Of a DNA stretch of 11,060 bases, positions 2,532-11,060 are shown in pieces. The notes under the pieces are model-generated. The model did no database searches. It was not told where the DNA came from and saw only the letters and a program-made list of their open reading frames with translations. The stretch is from Ktedonobacteraceae bacterium (GTDB lineage: Bacteria; Chloroflexota; Ktedonobacteria; Ktedonobacterales; Ktedonobacteraceae): the NCBI GenBank assembly GCA_014896635.1, contig JADBKA010000152.1:1-11060 (forward strand), read 5' to 3'. Position 1 is the stretch's first letter. The number at the start of each line of letters is the position of its first letter. A program made the translations under genes and the position numbers.

Positions 2532-3755
2532 CTACGAAGCAGGCCAGGCCACGACTGGCAGCCCTGTCGCGTCTTCGATCTCAAGCAGGCGGTTATACTT
2601 TGCCAGGCGTTCGCTCTGCGTGATCGAGCCGATCTTGATCTGATCGCCGGACCAGCCGACGGCAAGATCAGCCAGCCAGTTGTCTTCGGTCTCGCCACTG
2701 CGCGCGCTGATCGTCACCTGCCAGCCAGCCTCGCGCGCCAGGCGACAGGTTTCCGCTGCCTCGCTCAGCGTGCCGATCTGATTGACCTTGAGCAGCAGGG
2801 TATTGGCGGCCTGTGTGGCGATAGCGCGCTGGATGCGTTTGGGATTGGTGCAGATCAGATCGTCTCCCACTATCAGAACTTTCCCTGCCACGTGCCTGAC
2901 GAGTTGCGGCCAGTGCTCCCAATCGTTCTCGGCCAGGCCATCTTCGATGCTCACCAGCGGATAGCGCCCGGTCCACTCGGCGAGCAAGTCAATCATCGCG
3001 GAGCCATCCAGCCGCTTTCCTTCCCACAAATAGCCGGTGTCGCTGAAAAAGTGGCTCGCGGCGACGTCGATGGCGAGCGCGACGTCCCGGCCGGGGCGCA
3101 ATCCCGCTCTCTGTATAGACTCAACGGCGCTTTCCAGCATTTCTTCTGCGTGTGAGAAGGTCGGGGCCAGCCCACCTTCGTCGGCGGTCAGGGCGCGCGC
3201 GTTGTATCTGGCGGCGCTGTACTCGATGGCGCACTGATAGGCCGCGAAAGCCATTGCCAGCCCCTCATCAATCGTGCGCGCCGAGGCGGGGACGATCAGC
3301 ACATCCTGCACAGACACCTGGCCGCCGGCATGCTTGCCGCCGCTGAACAGGTTGATGGTCATGCGCGGCAATGTGCGTAAGGGAAGATTCAAGAGAGAGG
3401 CGAAATACTGGTAGAGCGGCATACTGTGCTCGTTTGCCAGAGCGCGTGCGAAAGCCAGTGAAACTGCCAGCAGTGCGTTGGCTCCGAGTCGTCCTTTATC
3501 GGGCGTGCCATCCAGGGCGATCAGCGTGCGATCCAGTTCTTGCTGTTCTTCAATGGAACGCGAAGCCAGCGCCTGCTGGATCTCGCCATTGATGCTGGCG
3601 GCGGCTTTGCGGCAGCCCAGGCCGCGATAGCGCGCGGGGTCGCCATCGCGCAGTTCGTGGGCCTCTGCCGCACCTGTCGAAGCGCCGGATGGCACGGATG
3701 CCGCGCCGACGGCTCCGCTGGCTAAATCATAGGGGTATCCGGCGGCCCGAATCAT
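2532..3755 (-). CDS. Enolase-like protein, N-terminally short, with altered active site
   Basis: A 407-aa homologue of enolase (phosphopyruvate hydratase), the glycolytic enzyme converting 2-phosphoglycerate to phosphoenolpyruvate. Conserved features are the SGASTG loop (S26), GGKHAGG (H142), ADEGG (E193), AIDVAAS (D230), SIEDGL (E271), GDDL (D298), LLKVNQIG (K323) and QIKIGS (K374). These match the metal ligands and the catalytic Lys and Glu of yeast enolase. Two key positions differ. The Glu of the usual QEF motif is Asp151 (VQDV), and the His of the usual ISHRSGETED is Ala351 (ISARSGETED). The N-terminal DSRGNPTVE strand is missing, and the loop starts about 13 residues early. An in-frame stop at 3777-3779 rules out an upstream extension. 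No clear ribosome site is seen, so it is probably coupled to the receiver gene 21 nt upstream. It is likely a divergent second enolase; whether it still dehydrates 2-phosphoglycerate is uncertain. Confidence 0.85.
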   Translation of the reverse strand: MIRAAGYPYDLASGAVGAASVPSGASTGAAEAHELRDGDPARYRGLGCRKAAASINGEIQQALASRSIEEQQELDRTLIALDGTPDKGRLGANALLAVSLAFARALANEHSMPLYQYFASLLNLPLRTLPRMTINLFSGGKHAGGQVSVQDVLIVPASARTIDEGLAMAFAAYQCAIEYSAARYNARALTADEGGLAPTFSHAEEMLESAVESIQRAGLRPGRDVALAIDVAASHFFSDTGYLWEGKRLDGSAMIDLLAEWTGRYPLVSIEDGLAENDWEHWPQLVRHVAGKVLIVGDDLICTNPKRIQRAIATQAANTLLLKVNQIGTLSEAAETCRLAREAGWQVTISARSGETEDNWLADLAVGWSGDQIKIGSITQSERLAKYNRLLEIEDATGLPVVAWPAS

Positions 3756-5063: not shown

Positions 5064-5380
5064 TTTTTCTCCTCCTGGTATCACTTCTGTCATCACACAG
5101 TCTGCCCCATGTGTTGCGCACCTCACTAAGTTGTATCTTCAAACCTTATCGCCCGCCAATGGCAAGATCGACGTATGACGGTAGAGTATTTCTGCTGGCG
5201 ATCTTCTATCAATCCCAGGAACTGGCTACAATGTGTACAGTCCACTACCGGCAGGGAGAAAGAGACACCGAAAGAATGAATTCAAGTGAGATGTCTTTTT
5301 AAGGCCGCCTCTCAGCATGCCGGGAGATGTGCGGCGGCCCGGCGGGCGCTGTTCATTTCACAGCACGAGAAGGAGATCAC
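5064..5380 (+). other. Intergenic region upstream of the MerB-like gene
   Basis: This is a 317-nt spacer between the XRE regulator and the lyase. It contains a T-run right after the regulator stop with no stem, a TACAAT (5225-5230 region) that could be a -10 without a good -35, and a near-dyad TACA-ATG-TGTA at the same place. It also holds a GC-rich hairpin (5303-5339) and the GAAGGAG ribosome site of the lyase. A 63-codon open frame at 5111-5302 resembles no protein family and has no ribosome site. No copy of the BlaI-type dyad found further right was seen here. Confidence 0.5.
5303..5339 (+). promoter_or_regulatory. GC-rich hairpin in the leader of the MerB-like gene
   Basis: GGCCGCC (5303-5309) pairs with GGCGGCC (5333-5339). 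Inside it TCTC (5310-5313) pairs with GAGA (5324-5327), leaving a 10-base loop and a 5-base bulge. The structure ends 41 nt before the lyase ATG. No U-run follows, so it is not an obvious terminator. It may be a leader structure that affects stability or translation. Confidence 0.4.
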
Positions 5381-6064
5381 ATGACTCAAAGTGAAGACTT
5401 TACTGCTTTTCAAAAGCAGGTTCGCTTTCAGGTGTACACGCAATTTGTCACGACTGGTCAGGCGCCGACAACTGGAGAGGTGGCTCAGGCGCTCTCGTGT
5501 TCGCGTGCTGAGGTTCAGGCTGCTTATCAGCAGTTGGCAGCAGCGAAAGCTCTGGTGTTACAAGAGAGTGGAGAAGTGCTGATGGCCGAACCATTTTCCG
5601 CTGTTCCGACCATGTTCGCAGTTGAAGTTGGAAACCGGCAGTGGTGGGGCAATTGTATCTGGGATGCCCTGGGCATTCCAGCGATGCTCAAGCAGGACGC
5701 ACGTGTGGTCACGGCGTGTGGCTGCTGTAATGAGGCAATGGCGCTTGATGTGCGAGATGGCAGGTTACAGCAGACGCATGCCGGCGTGGTTCATTTTGCC
5801 ATACCGCCGAGAGAGTGGTGGAATGACGTGGTGTTCGCCTGAAAAACGATCTTGCTCTTCCGGTCGGAAGAACATGTGGACCGCTGGTGCAGGCAGTGGC
5901 ATCAACCGCGCGGTGCGATCATTTCGCTAGAGCAACAATGGCGCCTGGCGTGTGCCTGGTATGAAGATCGCCTGATATTTGATTGGCGACGAAAGACCGG
6001 CGAGGAAGTAGAGGCACTCTGGAACGAACTCGGCTTTACTTCTTCATTCTGGTCTCTTGCCTGA
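5381..6064 (+). CDS. MerB-family organomercurial lyase, probable selenoprotein (in-frame TGA at codon 154)
   Basis: Read through one TGA (5840-5842), this is a 227-residue alkylmercury lyase homologue of normal MerB length. MerB cleaves the carbon-mercury bond of organomercurials in the cytosol. Residues 10-75 form the N-terminal winged-helix-like region (PTTGEVAQALSCSRAEVQAAY). The catalytic core has Cys92 and Asp95 in NCIWDALGIPAML, matching MerB Cys96 and Asp99. Cys113 in the TACGCC cluster matches MerB Cys117. The TGA codon falls in VVFA-x-KTILLFRSEEHVDRWC. Aligning to SFCCHVHFF of MerB without gaps puts it on the catalytic Cys159, with the same spacing to the first Cys (62 against 63). 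The frame then stays open to the TGA at 6062-6064. A SECIS-like hairpin follows. I infer Sec154; a Cys-to-stop mutation is the alternative. The start has GAAGGAG about 6 nt upstream, and the open frame before 5381 is not family-like. Confidence 0.8.
5853..5874 (+). promoter_or_regulatory. bSECIS-like hairpin for selenocysteine insertion
   Basis: TCTTCC (5856-5861) and GGAAGA (5866-5871) form a perfect 6-bp stem with tetraloop GGTC (5862-5865). Below it a C-A mismatch is followed by two more pairs (5853-5854 with 5873-5874). The loop begins 19 nt after the TGA, inside the 16-37 nt window of the published bacterial SECIS rule, and has G at its first two positions. From memory, the E. coli fdhF element also presents GGUC at its tip, 18 nt after its UGA. 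SelB would bind this loop. Confidence 0.7.
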
Positions 6065-6224: not shown

Positions 6225-6307
6225 TCATCAAGAGAAAAGAGGAAGGTGGCTTCTGCTATCCAGCGCAGGCTAAAGATTTGATCTCAGCAGCAAAGGAAAA
6301 AGGTCTT

Positions 6308-6745
6308 ATGGAAAAAGAACCAGATATTACAACCTTTCGAGCAGACCGACCCGGTGTGCGCAAGGTCCTGGGTGATCTTGAAGCCGAGATTATGGAGTTC
6401 ATCTGGTCCCATCCTTCACAAGAAGGCGTTACTGTGCGCGATGTTTTTGAGGTGCTCTATGAACGGCGTCATCTTGCCTATACCACAATTATGAACACGA
6501 TGACCCGCCTGGCTAAGAAACGCCTCTTGCGAATAGAGAAACGTGATCAAGCGTACGTCTATTTTCCAACGTATACGCGCGATGCGTTTATCTCCTGTTT
6601 TGTTGGCCGGTTCCTTGATGATCTCCTGGTCAATTTTTCGGGTGCGGCATTGCAGCATCTCCAATCGCTTCGGGATGCTGAGGGAATCGCCCGCTTGCAG
6701 CAGTTGATGCAAGAGGTTGAACGCAGAAAAGAAGAGGAGCGCTGA
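6308..6745 (+). CDS. blaI: BlaI/MecI-family transcriptional repressor
   Basis: A 145-aa winged-helix repressor of the BlaI/MecI/CopY family. The DNA-binding part has LGDLEAEIMEFIWSHPSQ, TVRDVFEVLYERRHLAYTTIMNTMTRL (recognition helix) and a wing KRDQAYVYFP. The C-terminal helical dimerisation part follows. Asn109-Phe110 in DDLLVNFSGA aligns with the LVLNF of staphylococcal MecI, where the sensor protease pathway cuts, so the inactivating cleavage site seems kept. The ATG at 6308 was chosen over a TTG at 6278: it gives the normal family N-terminus and has AAGGA about 10 nt upstream. It ends 4 nt before the M56 peptidase start, the classic blaI-blaR1 pair. It presumably represses its own promoter and the thioredoxin gene through the dyads at 6191 and 8593. 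Confidence 0.92.
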   Translation: MEKEPDITTFRADRPGVRKVLGDLEAEIMEFIWSHPSQEGVTVRDVFEVLYERRHLAYTTIMNTMTRLAKKRLLRIEKRDQAYVYFPTYTRDAFISCFVGRFLDDLLVNFSGAALQHLQSLRDAEGIARLQQLMQEVERRKEEER

Positions 6746-6749
6746 GGCG

Positions 6750-7769
6750 ATGCATACCGTGTTACTGATCACAGCCATTGGTATTACTCTATTTATGGGG
6801 ATGCTGGTTTTGCTTGCTTTGCGCTCCGTCAGAATCTGGTCAAAGCGGCGCAGAATGCAGCTACTCGTCTTACATCTTCCGCTACTTCCTCTACTGGTTG
6901 CATTTACAAGCATCTTGCACTTTTTCCTTTTCCATCGCATGTGTCTGCTGGATCTCTGGCCTCTGGATGCGATGTATGGACTCATTGTGCCGCTGGCAAT
7001 GAGCGTGATAGCGCTGGGAGCGGTCGTGCTGGGTGGTTTGCGTGTGGTGCTGCTCCGGGTCCTGTTGCTGACACAGCCCGGTTATGAGCGAGATCGGCTT
7101 CAGTTTCTAGAGAAGATGGGCGCTGCCTGCCAGCAGCAGAAACAGGTGCGCGTCCTGCTCTCTCCTGTTGATCGACCGCAGGCGCTGACGTATGGTGTCT
7201 TGCATCCAGTAATTGTGCTGTCGGTATGGATGCTCAGACATTTAGATCGACATGAGTTGGAGGCCGTTATGAGTCATGAACTGGCTCATGTTGCCGCACG
7301 CGACATTATGCTCGTCTGGCTCGGTACGGTATTGCGCGATGCCTTTTTCTACTTTCCAACCAGTCAGATTGCCTATCGACAACTTGTGCTAGAAAAAGAG
7401 CTGGCGTGCGATGATCAGGCTGTTGCCATGACGGGACGCCCGATGGCGCTTGCCAGTGCTTTGCTCAAGGTGTCGCTCTATGCAGCCGAGCGTGGGCATC
7501 TTGCTCGACTGGGCGCGCAGTTGCTGGTTAGTGCGCATGAGACGATCAGTCTGCGTGTTGAGCGCCTGCTCCAGAAGCACGATGAGAAAAAGCTGCAAGT
7601 TCCCTCTCCCATGCTGTCGTCATCTGGTCATAGCCATGTTGAGAGGCCGTTCTCCCGCCTCTCTTTGAGCCTTACCATGTTGATAATGAGTGCGTCCTGT
7701 ATAGGAGGCATACTGGCGGTCCTGGGATGCCGTCTGCTGGAGAGCTATCTTCCTATCGTATTCCTGTAA
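6750..7769 (+). CDS. M56-family (BlaR1-like) membrane metallopeptidase
   Basis: A 339-aa integral membrane zinc peptidase. Membrane segments lie at about residues 3-24, 38-61 and 76-107, with a C-terminal one at about 308-327. The zinc site is HELAH (176-180), and the third ligand is probably Glu217 in LEKELACDDQAV. Family members sense a signal and trigger cleavage of BlaI. Unlike staphylococcal BlaR1/MecR1, which are near 600 aa, it has no penicillin-binding sensor domain. After the last membrane segment only about 12 residues remain, so the inducer is unlikely to be a beta-lactam bound by this protein. The start is the ATG at 6750, 4 nt after the blaI stop, with GAGGAG inside the blaI end. 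The longer frame from 6717 overlaps blaI and adds only charged residues. Confidence 0.9.
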   Translation: MHTVLLITAIGITLFMGMLVLLALRSVRIWSKRRRMQLLVLHLPLLPLLVAFTSILHFFLFHRMCLLDLWPLDAMYGLIVPLAMSVIALGAVVLGGLRVVLLRVLLLTQPGYERDRLQFLEKMGAACQQQKQVRVLLSPVDRPQALTYGVLHPVIVLSVWMLRHLDRHELEAVMSHELAHVAARDIMLVWLGTVLRDAFFYFPTSQIAYRQLVLEKELACDDQAVAMTGRPMALASALLKVSLYAAERGHLARLGAQLLVSAHETISLRVERLLQKHDEKKLQVPSPMLSSSGHSHVERPFSRLSLSLTMLIMSASCIGGILAVLGCRLLESYLPIVFL

Positions 7770-7817
7770 TGCAGATACAGGAAATTGCTTTAGTGACGAA
7801 AGGAGCAATCCGTTTTC

Positions 7818-8540
7818 ATGAGTCTTTCTCTCTTCAGTGTGTCAGCTGCATTTCTTGCAGGACTGGTCTCGTTTTTTTCGCCCTGCCTGCTACCTCTGGT
7901 TCCAATTTATCTTGCGCAGCTTGTAGGGCATAGTGTCCGCCAGTCAGATATGATGGATCGTGCTCCTGTAGAGCGCCTGAAGACATTCCTTCATGCACTG
8001 ATGTTTGTGCTTGGCTTTACCCTGATCTTTGTTGCATTGGGGGCAACAGCCAGCGAGCTAGGAAGGTTTCTCTCCAGTTACCTGGTGCAGCTCCGTCAGG
8101 TAGGAGGGGTGATCCTGGTCATCATTGGCTTGCATCTGACAGGTCTGTTCCGCTTACCGTTTCTTTTCTGGCAGAAGCGTTTTCACTTTGTACCCGCTCG
8201 TCCAAATTTTGCGGCCTCTTTCCTGATGGGAAGCATTTTTGCGCTTGGATGGACTCCCTGTATCAGCCTGTTTCTCAGCTCTATCCTCACCCTGGCGGCG
8301 AGCACACAGACACTGTACGAGGGGATTTTTCTTCTTTTTATCTACTCACTGGGAATAGGTGTTCCTTTCCTGCTCATCGGGTTGGGGCTGAACCAGATGC
8401 ATCGCTTCTTGCAATGGCTCAAGCCACACCTTGCCCTTATCGAGGCGGGCAGCGGCGTGATGATGATTGTCATGGGCATACTGGTTTTCTTTAACCTGCT
8501 AGCCGTGATTAATAGCTTCTTTCCAGCCATAGGAGCATAG
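7818..8540 (+). CDS. ccdA: CcdA/DsbD-type transmembrane thiol-disulfide transporter
   Basis: A 240-aa polytopic membrane protein of the CcdA family with about six membrane segments. It passes reducing equivalents from cytoplasmic thioredoxin across the membrane to extracytoplasmic thioredoxin-like proteins. Both redox cysteines are present in their motifs: Cys23 in SFFSPCLLPLVPIYL and Cys148 in FALGWTPCIS. The length matches the family. It starts 48 nt after the M56 peptidase gene with AGGAG about 12 nt upstream, a slightly long spacing, and no promoter was seen in the gap, so it is likely in the blaI operon. The membrane-anchored thioredoxin encoded next is its obvious electron acceptor. Confidence 0.93.
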   Translation: MSLSLFSVSAAFLAGLVSFFSPCLLPLVPIYLAQLVGHSVRQSDMMDRAPVERLKTFLHALMFVLGFTLIFVALGATASELGRFLSSYLVQLRQVGGVILVIIGLHLTGLFRLPFLFWQKRFHFVPARPNFAASFLMGSIFALGWTPCISLFLSSILTLAASTQTLYEGIFLLFIYSLGIGVPFLLIGLGLNQMHRFLQWLKPHLALIEAGSGVMMIVMGILVFFNLLAVINSFFPAIGA

Positions 8541-8592
8541 AAGTATTCCCGTAGCATTCTCAACCGTATGTCAGCTTGAACTTATGACATGT

Positions 8593-8609
8593 TACTATCG
8601 ACAATGGTA
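8593..8609. promoter_or_regulatory. Second BlaI-type operator, before the thioredoxin gene
   Basis: TACTATCG-A-CAATGGTA matches the blaI dyad at 15 of 17 positions and has the same 8+1+8 layout. It lies 15 nt before the thioredoxin ATG. A weak promoter can be drawn around it (ATGACA at 8584-8589, 18-nt spacer, TACTAT at 8608-8613), with the operator between the two boxes. That would give a very short leader. Confidence 0.7.
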
Positions 8610-8624
8610 CTATAGGAGGTAGAT

Positions 8625-9305
8625 ATGCATACTACCGGTCAGCGTCAGCAGATCAAGCGAAGAAAGACTCTGAAGAGGCGTCCGGGGTGGAGGCGCGTAA
8701 TATCGCTGAGCAGTATTGTCCTGCCGGTGATAGTGCTGTTATTTTTTGGATGGCGATTACTGACGCCGGCGCCGTTATCGTCTCCTACGGAGCCAGCCGG
8801 GCAGAACTCTGCCGGAGCGCCGGGAGTTACACCAACACCGTCAGCTATTGCTCTGGAAGGCAGGAATGCTCTTCTTGGCAAACCTGCACCTGATTTTACA
8901 CTCTCCACGCTGGCGAACTACAATGAACCCCGGCTTCACCTGGCGAGTGTGCGAGGCAAACCTGTTGTCCTGAATTTCTGGGCTTCCTGGTGTCCCCCGT
9001 GTCAGGCTGAAACTCCTTTGCTCCAGAAAGCCTGGGCGCAGCGCACAGGGAAGCAGGCAGATATCCTCTTCATCGGTATTCAGGTGGCCGATCCGCCTGA
9101 GAGGGGGAAAGCGTTCGTTGAACGGTTCGGTGTGACCTATCCTGTAGTGACGGTTGATAGGGAGCATACACCCATGGATTACCAGGTGGCTGGTTTGCCT
9201 GAAACCCTTTTTCTCGACCGTCAGGGGCGTATCGTTCGCTCTGTGGAAGGAGAACTCACTGAAGAGCTATTGCAGCGCCATTTGAATGCTATTGCGCAGA
9301 CGTGA
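8625..9305 (+). CDS. Membrane-anchored TlpA/ResA-like thioredoxin
   Basis: A 226-aa protein facing outside the cytoplasmic membrane. Residues 1-24 are strongly basic and 26-46 form a membrane anchor. Residues 47-82 are a Pro/Ser/Gly-rich linker, and 83-226 form an AhpC/TSA-redoxin type thioredoxin domain. The active site is WCPPC (Cys123, Cys126) in VVLNFWASWCPPCQAETPLL, and the cis-proline loop is AGLPETLFLD (Pro192). Relatives reduce disulfides during cytochrome c maturation or in other extracytoplasmic proteins, using electrons from CcdA. No cytochrome maturation gene is in view. The start has AGGAGG 5 nt upstream. A BlaI-type operator precedes it, so it appears to be controlled separately as well as by readthrough from ccdA 84 nt upstream. 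Confidence 0.93.
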   Translation: MHTTGQRQQIKRRKTLKRRPGWRRVISLSSIVLPVIVLLFFGWRLLTPAPLSSPTEPAGQNSAGAPGVTPTPSAIALEGRNALLGKPAPDFTLSTLANYNEPRLHLASVRGKPVVLNFWASWCPPCQAETPLLQKAWAQRTGKQADILFIGIQVADPPERGKAFVERFGVTYPVVTVDREHTPMDYQVAGLPETLFLDRQGRIVRSVEGELTEELLQRHLNAIAQT

Positions 9306-9343: not shown

Positions 9344-11060
9344 TCATGCGCTGATCATCGTGCTCCCATCGGGATAGTCTCTGTAGCGCGTCAGAATGTA
9401 GATAAAGATCTCCTGGCAGAGCGACTCGTAGATCGCCGGAACATAGCTAGCCGGCAAGTGCTGGTCCAGCGTCTCACCGATGATCCTCTTCATGCCGGCT
9501 TTCATCATTGGTTTCTTGTGCCAGTCACGGACCAGCAGATTGCTCCCCTGGATGGTTTTGAGCAATGTGCGTGCGGTCTCTTTCACCTGGCGGCGCTCTG
9601 CCACAGTAAGGTGTAGTTCTGGCGAGAGGAGCAGATCGGCGATGGCGAGTTCTTCCTCGCTCATCTGCTCGCGCGCCGGACGGAGTTCCTCGTCGCGCAC
9701 CTGGCGAGCAAACTCGATGATCTCAGTCGGGTAGTCGGCATTATTGGCGCTCTCGCGGTTATATTTCGTCGTGATATCTTCCAGTTTTTTGAGGTAGTCA
9801 GCTCGTTTCGGGTTGACGCGGATCATGCGCTGAAGTCTGAGTGTGAGCAGGCTGCGCAGGCGCTCGGCCTGAAGATAGATGTTCTCGGCCCTCATGCTAG
9901 CGGCCAGAGCATCGAAGTCGATCTGGCTCAGGTCGAAGGTGCCTAAAAGCGCATCGGGATCGTGGCTTGTCTGGCGAGAAACATAGTCATAGATACTGGT
10001 TCCCTCGGCAATGATCCGGCGTCCTCTGGTCAGGGTGTCGTCAATATTCTGACCGGACATGGCGGCGAAGATGGTCTGCTGCACTGCGCGCAGAAAGAAT
10101 ATACGCGCTTTAAAGCGAGCTGCCTCTTTGTCTGGCAGCAGTGCCTGATAGAGCCGGTAGGCGTCCCAGACCAGGCTGAGAAAGTTCAGCTTGACATCTT
10201 CGCGTATGATCAGCGCGTTAGCGGCGGCCTGGATCTGCGCCTCGCGTTCTGCTCCGGTGTGAGCTGCTTCCAGCGCGGCAAGCGCCGTAGAGAGATTGAC
10301 GTCGTTGCGCTGGCAGAACGTATCGAGGTCTGTCAGGGCCTGTTCCAGTTCACCAATCAGTTCGCTTTTCTCGCTGAGGGGCATACGTACATCCGCTTCG
10401 GTAATCCCCTGGTCTGGTTGTGCATAGGTATTGAGAGCTTTGAGTAATTTATAGTAGATGCCGACATAATCGACGATCTGGCCGTATGCCTTCTCTTCCC
10501 CAAAGACGCGATTGGGCCGTGCAAGTGCCTGCATCAGCGTGTGATCTTCCATTGGATGATCCAGGTAGAGAGTGGAGAGGCAGGGAACGTCGAAACAGGT
10601 CATCCACATGAAGCAGACGAAGACGATGCGTAATGAGTTATCAGGATCTTTAAAATGCTTATCCAGCGGCTCACGCTCGTAGCGTTCATGATGAGGTCTG
10701 ATATCGAGCTGCTCGGTGGGATGTTCGCGGTTAAATTGTGCGACTTTTCCCTCTTCAGAGGCATCCGAAGCAGAGATGACAACGGCCATGTCCGTTGTTT
10801 GCATATACTGGAGTTCCTGTTCCAGTGCCATTCTGCGTTCTGGATCGCTCTCCAGTTGCCGTTGTCTCTCCAGTTCGGCCTGGTAGCGCAGCCAGGCTTG
10901 CCTGACGCGATTGTAGGTACGTACTGCCGTGATCTTGTCGATGGAGACAACCATCGCTTTTCCTCTGTAGCCGCGATTCATGAAGTGCCTGACGATATCC
11001 TCGGCGATGAAATCCAGCCGCGCGGCGCTGCTGATGAGCGTATCGCGCTGGAACAACTCC
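9344..11060 (-). CDS. hsdR: Type I restriction enzyme R subunit, C-terminal part (partial)
   Basis: About 571 codons of an HsdR subunit run off the right edge; the 5' end (nuclease domain and helicase domain 1) lies beyond 11060. The visible part begins in RecA-like helicase domain 2. It includes the FDVPCLSTLYLDHPMEDHTL segment after helicase motif V, motif VI QALARPNRVF, and then IVDYVGIY. A long helical C-terminal domain follows, which in the family contacts the methylase. R subunits use ATP to translocate DNA and cut it away from the recognition site. The usual MWLTGFDVP of motif V reads MWMTCFDVP here, a Gly-to-Cys change. The gene converges with the thioredoxin gene with a 38-nt gap and no visible terminator. 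hsdM and hsdS are not in the window. Confidence 0.9.
   Translation of the reverse strand, partial: ELFQRDTLISSAARLDFIAEDIVRHFMNRGYRGKAMVVSIDKITAVRTYNRVRQAWLRYQAELERQRQLESDPERRMALEQELQYMQTTDMAVVISASDASEEGKVAQFNREHPTEQLDIRPHHERYEREPLDKHFKDPDNSLRIVFVCFMWMTCFDVPCLSTLYLDHPMEDHTLMQALARPNRVFGEEKAYGQIVDYVGIYYKLLKALNTYAQPDQGITEADVRMPLSEKSELIGELEQALTDLDTFCQRNDVNLSTALAALEAAHTGAEREAQIQAAANALIIREDVKLNFLSLVWDAYRLYQALLPDKEAARFKARIFFLRAVQQTIFAAMSGQNIDDTLTRGRRIIAEGTSIYDYVSRQTSHDPDALLGTFDLSQIDFDALAASMRAENIYLQAERLRSLLTLRLQRMIRVNPKRADYLKKLEDITTKYNRESANNADYPTEIIEFARQVRDEELRPAREQMSEEELAIADLLLSPELHLTVAERRQVKETARTLLKTIQGSNLLVRDWHKKPMMKAGMKRIIGETLDQHLPASYVPAIYESLCQEIFIYILTRYRDYPDGSTMISA

Follow-up and report, generated by a model that had tools for sequence, protein, structure and literature searches.

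A widespread family of MerB-like proteins with predicted selenocysteine at the second catalytic position

Introduction

Catalysis by the organomercurial lyase MerB involves metal binding by Cys96 and Cys159 and protonolysis assisted by Asp99. A MerB-like selenoprotein, SaoL, has already been described, and its gene is adjoined by the Sao transporter genes. SaoL is listed with the motif CU in a table of PMC13188914, the accessible part of which names the Sao ABC transporter genes SaoX, SaoB and SaoP, and SaoL is the sole MerB-like selenoprotein in the accessible main text of that paper and of PMC9312934. MerB is absent from the main text of PMC12013277 and PMC5029168, and no other report of a selenocysteine-containing MerB was found within open-licence PMC papers. 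Here, we describe a MerB-like gene with an in-frame UGA, very probably encoding selenocysteine (Sec), in a stretch of 11,060 nucleotides from a Ktedonobacteraceae bacterium (hereafter, the window), and compare it with its relatives in other genomes.

Results

A MerB-family frame with a single internal UGA

The MerB-like frame of the window (Table 1) contains only one internal stop codon, the TGA at residue 154, and likewise terminates in TGA, at 6062–6064. A preliminary description of this DNA had stated that the frame is kept on both sides of the internal codon and that the full length is normal. Consistently, the read-through product has the ordinary length of a MerB-family protein and matches the Pfam MerB family PF03243 (1.9e-33) over residues 72–195, spanning both sides of the TGA, with 115.6 bits against a gathering score of 27 bits. 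The score against the NCBIfam MerB equivalog is below the cut-off (55 versus 193 bits), and hence we regard the protein as a member of the MerB family and do not call it a MerB equivalog.

Residue 154 aligns with the Cys that directly precedes a Ser in PDB 3f2g, a structure named as the MerB mutant C160S, that is, with MerB Cys159. This alignment is gap-free around the site and has a single 1-residue gap farther upstream, in agreement with the position originally proposed for the codon. The equivalence of Cys92, Asp95 and Cys113 to MerB Cys96, Asp99 and Cys117 was likewise borne out by a 31-row alignment, in which Cys92 and Asp95 are invariant, and Cys113 and column 154 (with Sec scored as Cys) are at least 90% conserved. 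Judged by these residues, Cys92, Asp95 and the UGA at 154 would occupy MerB positions Cys96, Asp99 and 159. When modeled with AlphaFold2, with Cys replacing Sec, the read-through product reaches a mean pLDDT of 95.9 and a value of at least 90 at 216 of 228 residues, and the top PDB match of the model in Foldseek is MerB2 (5c17; 2.8e-11), with MerB2 and MerB structures ranking best.

Table 1. Features of the predicted selenoprotein gene in the window
Feature	Position	Strand	Remarks
Ribosome-binding site AAGGAG	5370..5375	+	5 nt 5' of the ATG at 5381; read from sequence
MerB-family selenoprotein gene (predicted)	5381..6064	+	227 residues, single internal UGA; PF03243, predicted fold
Cys92, equivalent of catalytic MerB Cys96	5654..5656	+	Invariant in alignments
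Asp95, equivalent of MerB Asp99	5663..5665	+	Invariant in alignments
Cys113, equivalent of MerB Cys117	5717..5719	+	Nearly invariant in alignments
UGA, predicted selenocysteine 154, equivalent of MerB Cys159	5840..5842	+	Alignment, conserved column
Predicted SECIS stem-loop	5856..5871	+	6-bp stem; GGUC loop 5862–5865; UGA-to-loop 19 nt

The UGA is conserved in relatives from several phyla

In a genome scan, each of the 80 retained loci, the best 80 of 151 relatives, had TGA at the aligned column; as these are the relatives nearest to the window, Cys forms are under-sampled among them. The argument of the preliminary description that a chance nonsense mutation is unlikely is thus strengthened. 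A pseudogene or a sequencing error, with a nonsense change in a normal MerB gene, is extremely improbable: although decayed relatives exist (L158 and probably L002), it is at odds with the TGA in each of these best 80 of 151 relatives, with the constraint that persists past the TGA and with the lack of a second internal stop in the window frame.

The hosts are assigned to Chloroflexota, Acidobacteriota, Actinomycetota, Planctomycetota, Calditrichota and a small number of other groups, although nearly all are metagenome bins, so that an isolated unexpected phylum may reflect misbinning. Plasmid relatives comprise 6 records, every one below 60% identity; of the two plasmid loci read, the one from Rubrobacter has TGA at the column and the one from Paraburkholderia TGT. 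No relatives on viral contigs were found among 44 pattern matches. The homologue search yielded 1440 proteins, and 113 of the 120 listed, including the product of the window itself, end exactly before the UGA codon, as judged from the proteins rather than from DNA. Five of the listed homologues reach the normal C-terminus (P0037, P0055, P0078, P0096 and P0119), P0085 is partial and P0103 has the Sec site deleted. The gene is very probably intact, and it is a member of a widespread family, found mostly in soil bacteria, whose database entries are cut-off fragments.

Some relatives have unusual 3' parts. The merB of the Rubrobacter radiotolerans plasmid (L002:2935–3204) is annotated with about 89 residues, terminating at the TGA column; past this point its sequence diverges from the family and looks degraded. 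L158:1516–1635, from a genome (G530) of the same class as G001, the genome nearest to the window, is a C-terminal scrap with 82% identity over 40 residues, and its internal stop marks it as a relic. In a Rubrobacteraceae locus (L081, from 4078), extra residues follow the TGA and, by eye, a different possible hairpin replaces the usual one.

Coding constraint continues past the UGA

Constraint, codon use and the hairpin were analyzed in 86 coding rows, one of them the window. Excluded were L001, L002, L081, L101–L103, L105, L114 and L115, together with rows that failed to cover both sides, as near-duplicates, for frame loss, or as partial or not TGA. Codon positions 1, 2 and 3 differ at frequencies of 0.416, 0.381 and 0.609 upstream of the UGA, and of 0.412, 0.353 and 0.597 past the hairpin. 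Among the listed close pairs, the dN/dS ratios before and after the TGA are 0.057 and 0.054 (L010–L016), 0.075 and 0.064 (L010–L018), 0.125 and 0.108 (L016–L015), and 0.125 and 0.123 (L079–L082), with a larger contrast in L016–L018 (0.119 before, 0.019 after); distant pairs are near saturation and barely informative. These comparisons support a protein-level constraint on the segment after the TGA similar to that on the segment before it.

The truncated database entries would fit a UGA that acts as a real stop, with a functional 153-residue product that has Cys92 and Asp95 and lacks the second catalytic residue, and with the downstream part translated separately, for which a TTG-start ORF at 5852 is available, or only rarely. 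Under this explanation, however, neither the nearly equal constraint on the downstream segment nor its incorporation into one confidently predicted fold would be expected, and the Cys-form relatives extend to the same C-terminus. Moreover, across 82 loci the column holds 81 TGA and 1 TGT, with no TAA or TAG. A functional stop at this position is therefore extremely improbable.

A SECIS-like hairpin follows the UGA

The SECIS-type hairpin initially noticed 3' of the TGA is a property of the family. Counted from the U of the UGA, the loop at nucleotides 23–26 is GGTC in 84 of 86 aligned loci, and the stem pairs 17–32, 18–31, 19–30, 20–29, 21–28 and 22–27 are formed in 80, 85, 86, 86, 86 and 84 of 86, respectively. 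Compensatory changes were found at three pairs, from C-G to G-C at 18–31 (5 rows) and from C-G to U-A at 22–27 (5 rows) and 21–28 (1 row); in the tree, the rows concerned form two clades plus one row and thus represent few events. The clade carrying the 18–31 change, within which P0037 falls, has Gln or Arg in place of Glu on one side of the pair, the other side being silent in a Leu codon. Codon usage under the hairpin is biased, with CGG accounting for 80 of 81 Arg codons (against 381 of 1437 in the rest of these genes) and TCG for 79 of 84 Ser codons (against 281 of 863), although the relatedness of the rows inflates the significance. The near-invariance of the stem is in part due to the hairpin also encoding F-R-S-E. 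In the window, the hairpin lies within all four limits of the bacterial SECIS model as given in the accessible part of PMC13188914, and the folding energy of the 45 nt starting from the UGA is −10.5 kcal/mol.

Selenocysteine machinery in the host genomes

The machinery was searched for in 49 TGA-bearing genomes, corresponding to 50 of the 80 retained loci. A tRNA-Sec of at least 62 bits is present in 42 of the 49 genomes, SelB over the cut-off in 40 and SelA in 41, with at least one of the three in 46. Matches to tRNA-Sec below 60 bits were not counted; the Rfam cut-off is passed by 45 of the 49 genomes and also by 5 of 14 control genomes. By the thresholds used, all three components are missing from G019, G028 and G046, with a short SelA end piece in G019. 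The nearest genome, the Ktedonobacteraceae bin G001, whose gene is 66% identical to that of the window, has tRNA-Sec, SelB and SelA, and ARAGORN assigns SeC(tca) to its tRNA and to four others. Nocardioides sp. zg-1230 (L068, genome G048) combines the TGA gene with tRNA-Sec, SelA and a SelB match slightly below the cut-off.

Of 47 genomes in the class to which G001 belongs, 41 have SelA over the cut-off, as do 200 of 251 Chloroflexota genomes. All 12 Chloroflexota with TGA at the column have a strong SelA match, whereas in the SelA-free Chloroflexota G070, G089 and G132 the best homologue is a full-length Cys form (E 1e-35 to 1e-28; 12/12 versus 0/3, one-sided Fisher 0.002). The latter three genomes form one clade in the tree, and their best SelB matches (~1e-57) are taken to be at the level of EF-Tu-like proteins. 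Distant Cys-containing MerBs (E ~1e-9 or weaker; L117–L120) are present in the SelA-positive genomes G196, G279, G065 and G085, so that the SelA contrast is valid only within the nearer family. Against the background of entire groups, co-occurrence with SelA is weak evidence because Sec is common there: 12 of 12 TGA genomes versus 188 of 239 others in Chloroflexota (p 0.06), and 9 of 11 versus 106 of 208 (p 0.04) in the 219-genome class of the Thermoleophilia bin G045, with a SelA match absent from 2 of the 11.

Cys, Trp and double-TGA forms

The preliminary description had proposed looking for TGA/Cys exchange at the column, and such exchange was found, with TGC in G070, G089 and G132 and TGT in the Paraburkholderia plasmid. 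A maximum-likelihood tree of 76 rows, with Sec rows thinned to 65, pairs the window with L003 (99/96), and the Sec, Cys and Trp labels require six changes in all. Homologues P0037 and P0055 have Trp at the Sec column, which would be compatible with the UGA being read as Trp, either by near-cognate readthrough or through codon reassignment. We consider this very unlikely, given that the same gene terminates in TGA, that the hairpin, its compensatory changes and the Sec machinery would be left without a role, and that the three SelA-free genomes have Cys rather than Trp at the column. Furthermore, the two Trp rows are lone tips within Sec rows; several Cys rows also sit among Sec rows, with weak support. 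Both Trp homologues retain the FRSEQH/FRSEEH segment, and their Trp (TGG), which is one step from UGA, may mark a loss of Sec.

Some MerB-like genes carry TGA at both the Cys96 and Cys159 columns. These include three paralogues in the Chloroflexota genome G185 (L131, L132 and L133), two with Glu and one with Asp at the Asp99 position, and a more distant gene in another, G060 (L130), in which the Asp is retained. In each double form, the usual hairpin recurs after the second TGA, its closing pair being U-A in G060, and SelA is present in both genomes. The hairpins that follow the first TGA vary more, and for that site the assignment of Sec rests on the repetition across the three paralogues of G185 together with the gene from G060.

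Gene neighborhood

Clustering of ORFs of at least 70 residues around 81 loci (the window and L003–L082) yielded no neighbor cluster recurring in more than 6 of the 81, and no neighbor in the window clustered with a neighbor of another locus; a conserved operon was accordingly abandoned as a functional clue. A scan of seven other ORFs of the window revealed no mer genes. Of the 49 hosts, 4 have canonical MerA over the cut-off, alongside many weaker flavoprotein matches. Downstream of the gene on the same strand (6278–9305), the window encodes a BlaI-like repressor, a BlaR1-like M56 peptidase, a CcdA/DsbD-type membrane protein and a ResA-like thioredoxin, which, since neighbors do not recur, give no conserved clue. 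On the minus strand, there is an enolase-like ORF (2532–3755; recognized by eye) that starts without the ordinary enolase N-terminus, no missing piece of which was found in other frames nearby, and, cut by the end of the window, the C-terminal portion of an HsdR-like type I restriction protein (9344–11059).

Discussion

The conservation of the UGA in several phyla, the compensated SECIS, the downstream constraint, the presence of the machinery in most of the relatives' genomes and the Cys homologues together indicate that the protein is very probably a Sec-containing homologue of MerB, as originally suggested. From these sequence comparisons, we put at roughly 0.94 the probability that a full-length MerB-like lyase is encoded here, with UGA specifying Sec where MerB has its second catalytic residue, Cys159. 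SelB and Sec-tRNA would use the hairpin located 19 nt after the UGA for Sec insertion. In the enzyme, the Sec154 selenolate, together with Cys92, would capture the metal of an organometallic substrate, with Asp95 aiding protonation and cleavage of the carbon-metal bond, as in MerB. Compared with Cys, Sec is expected to be deprotonated at neutral pH and to be a better nucleophile and a tighter ligand of mercury. That the substrate is an organomercurial is an assumption drawn from membership in the MerB family.

Most of the listed database proteins are truncated at the UGA and thereby lack one of the two catalytic residues, and surveys of organomercury-degradation genes would miss the family or count its fragments. 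The family adds a probably non-redox selenoenzyme, for which the affinity of selenium for mercury provides a direct chemical rationale, and its near-invariant SECIS, conserved across phyla, offers material for work on SelB. More tentatively, and with the odds somewhat against it, these genes might represent a large unrecognized selenium-dependent branch of the MerB fold, including a double-Sec side lineage, that cleaves carbon-metal bonds, perhaps in methylmercury, independently of a canonical mer operon or MerA. If true, this Sec branch could be an overlooked route of demethylation.

Among known systems, the E. coli fdhF SECIS shares the GGUC apical loop, at nucleotides 22–25 in fdhF versus 23–26 here, but differs in the sequence of the stem, which in the present family is almost invariant between phyla. 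MerB and MerB2 (PF03243; 3f2g, 5c17) share with the window protein the family, the fold and the positions of Cys96, Asp99, Cys117 and Cys159, with a predicted Sec here replacing Cys159. SaoL (NF040728) is likewise a MerB homologue listed with Sec, and whether the gene belongs to it had been left open in the preliminary description. The SaoL model, which has 159 positions, matches residues 5–136 and ends at about the Sec column, so that the Sec site of SaoL is perhaps the same or an adjacent one. Nevertheless, the match scores 54.4 bits, far under the cut-off of 140, and the residues at the site are A153-U154, that is, the CU motif is absent; no ABC transporter family was detected among the seven other window ORFs scanned, and none of the 251 Chloroflexota genomes has SaoL over the cut-off. 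No true SaoL sequence was recovered from these genomes, from a homologue search with a distant MerB or from two NCBIfam scans. Membership in SaoL is therefore unlikely. The hosts of the present family, by comparison with those of SaoL, are mainly bins of Chloroflexota, Acidobacteriota and Actinomycetota, and we rate the family, as judged from its sequences, as a predicted Sec-containing variant of MerB that lies outside both the cut-off and the motif of SaoL.
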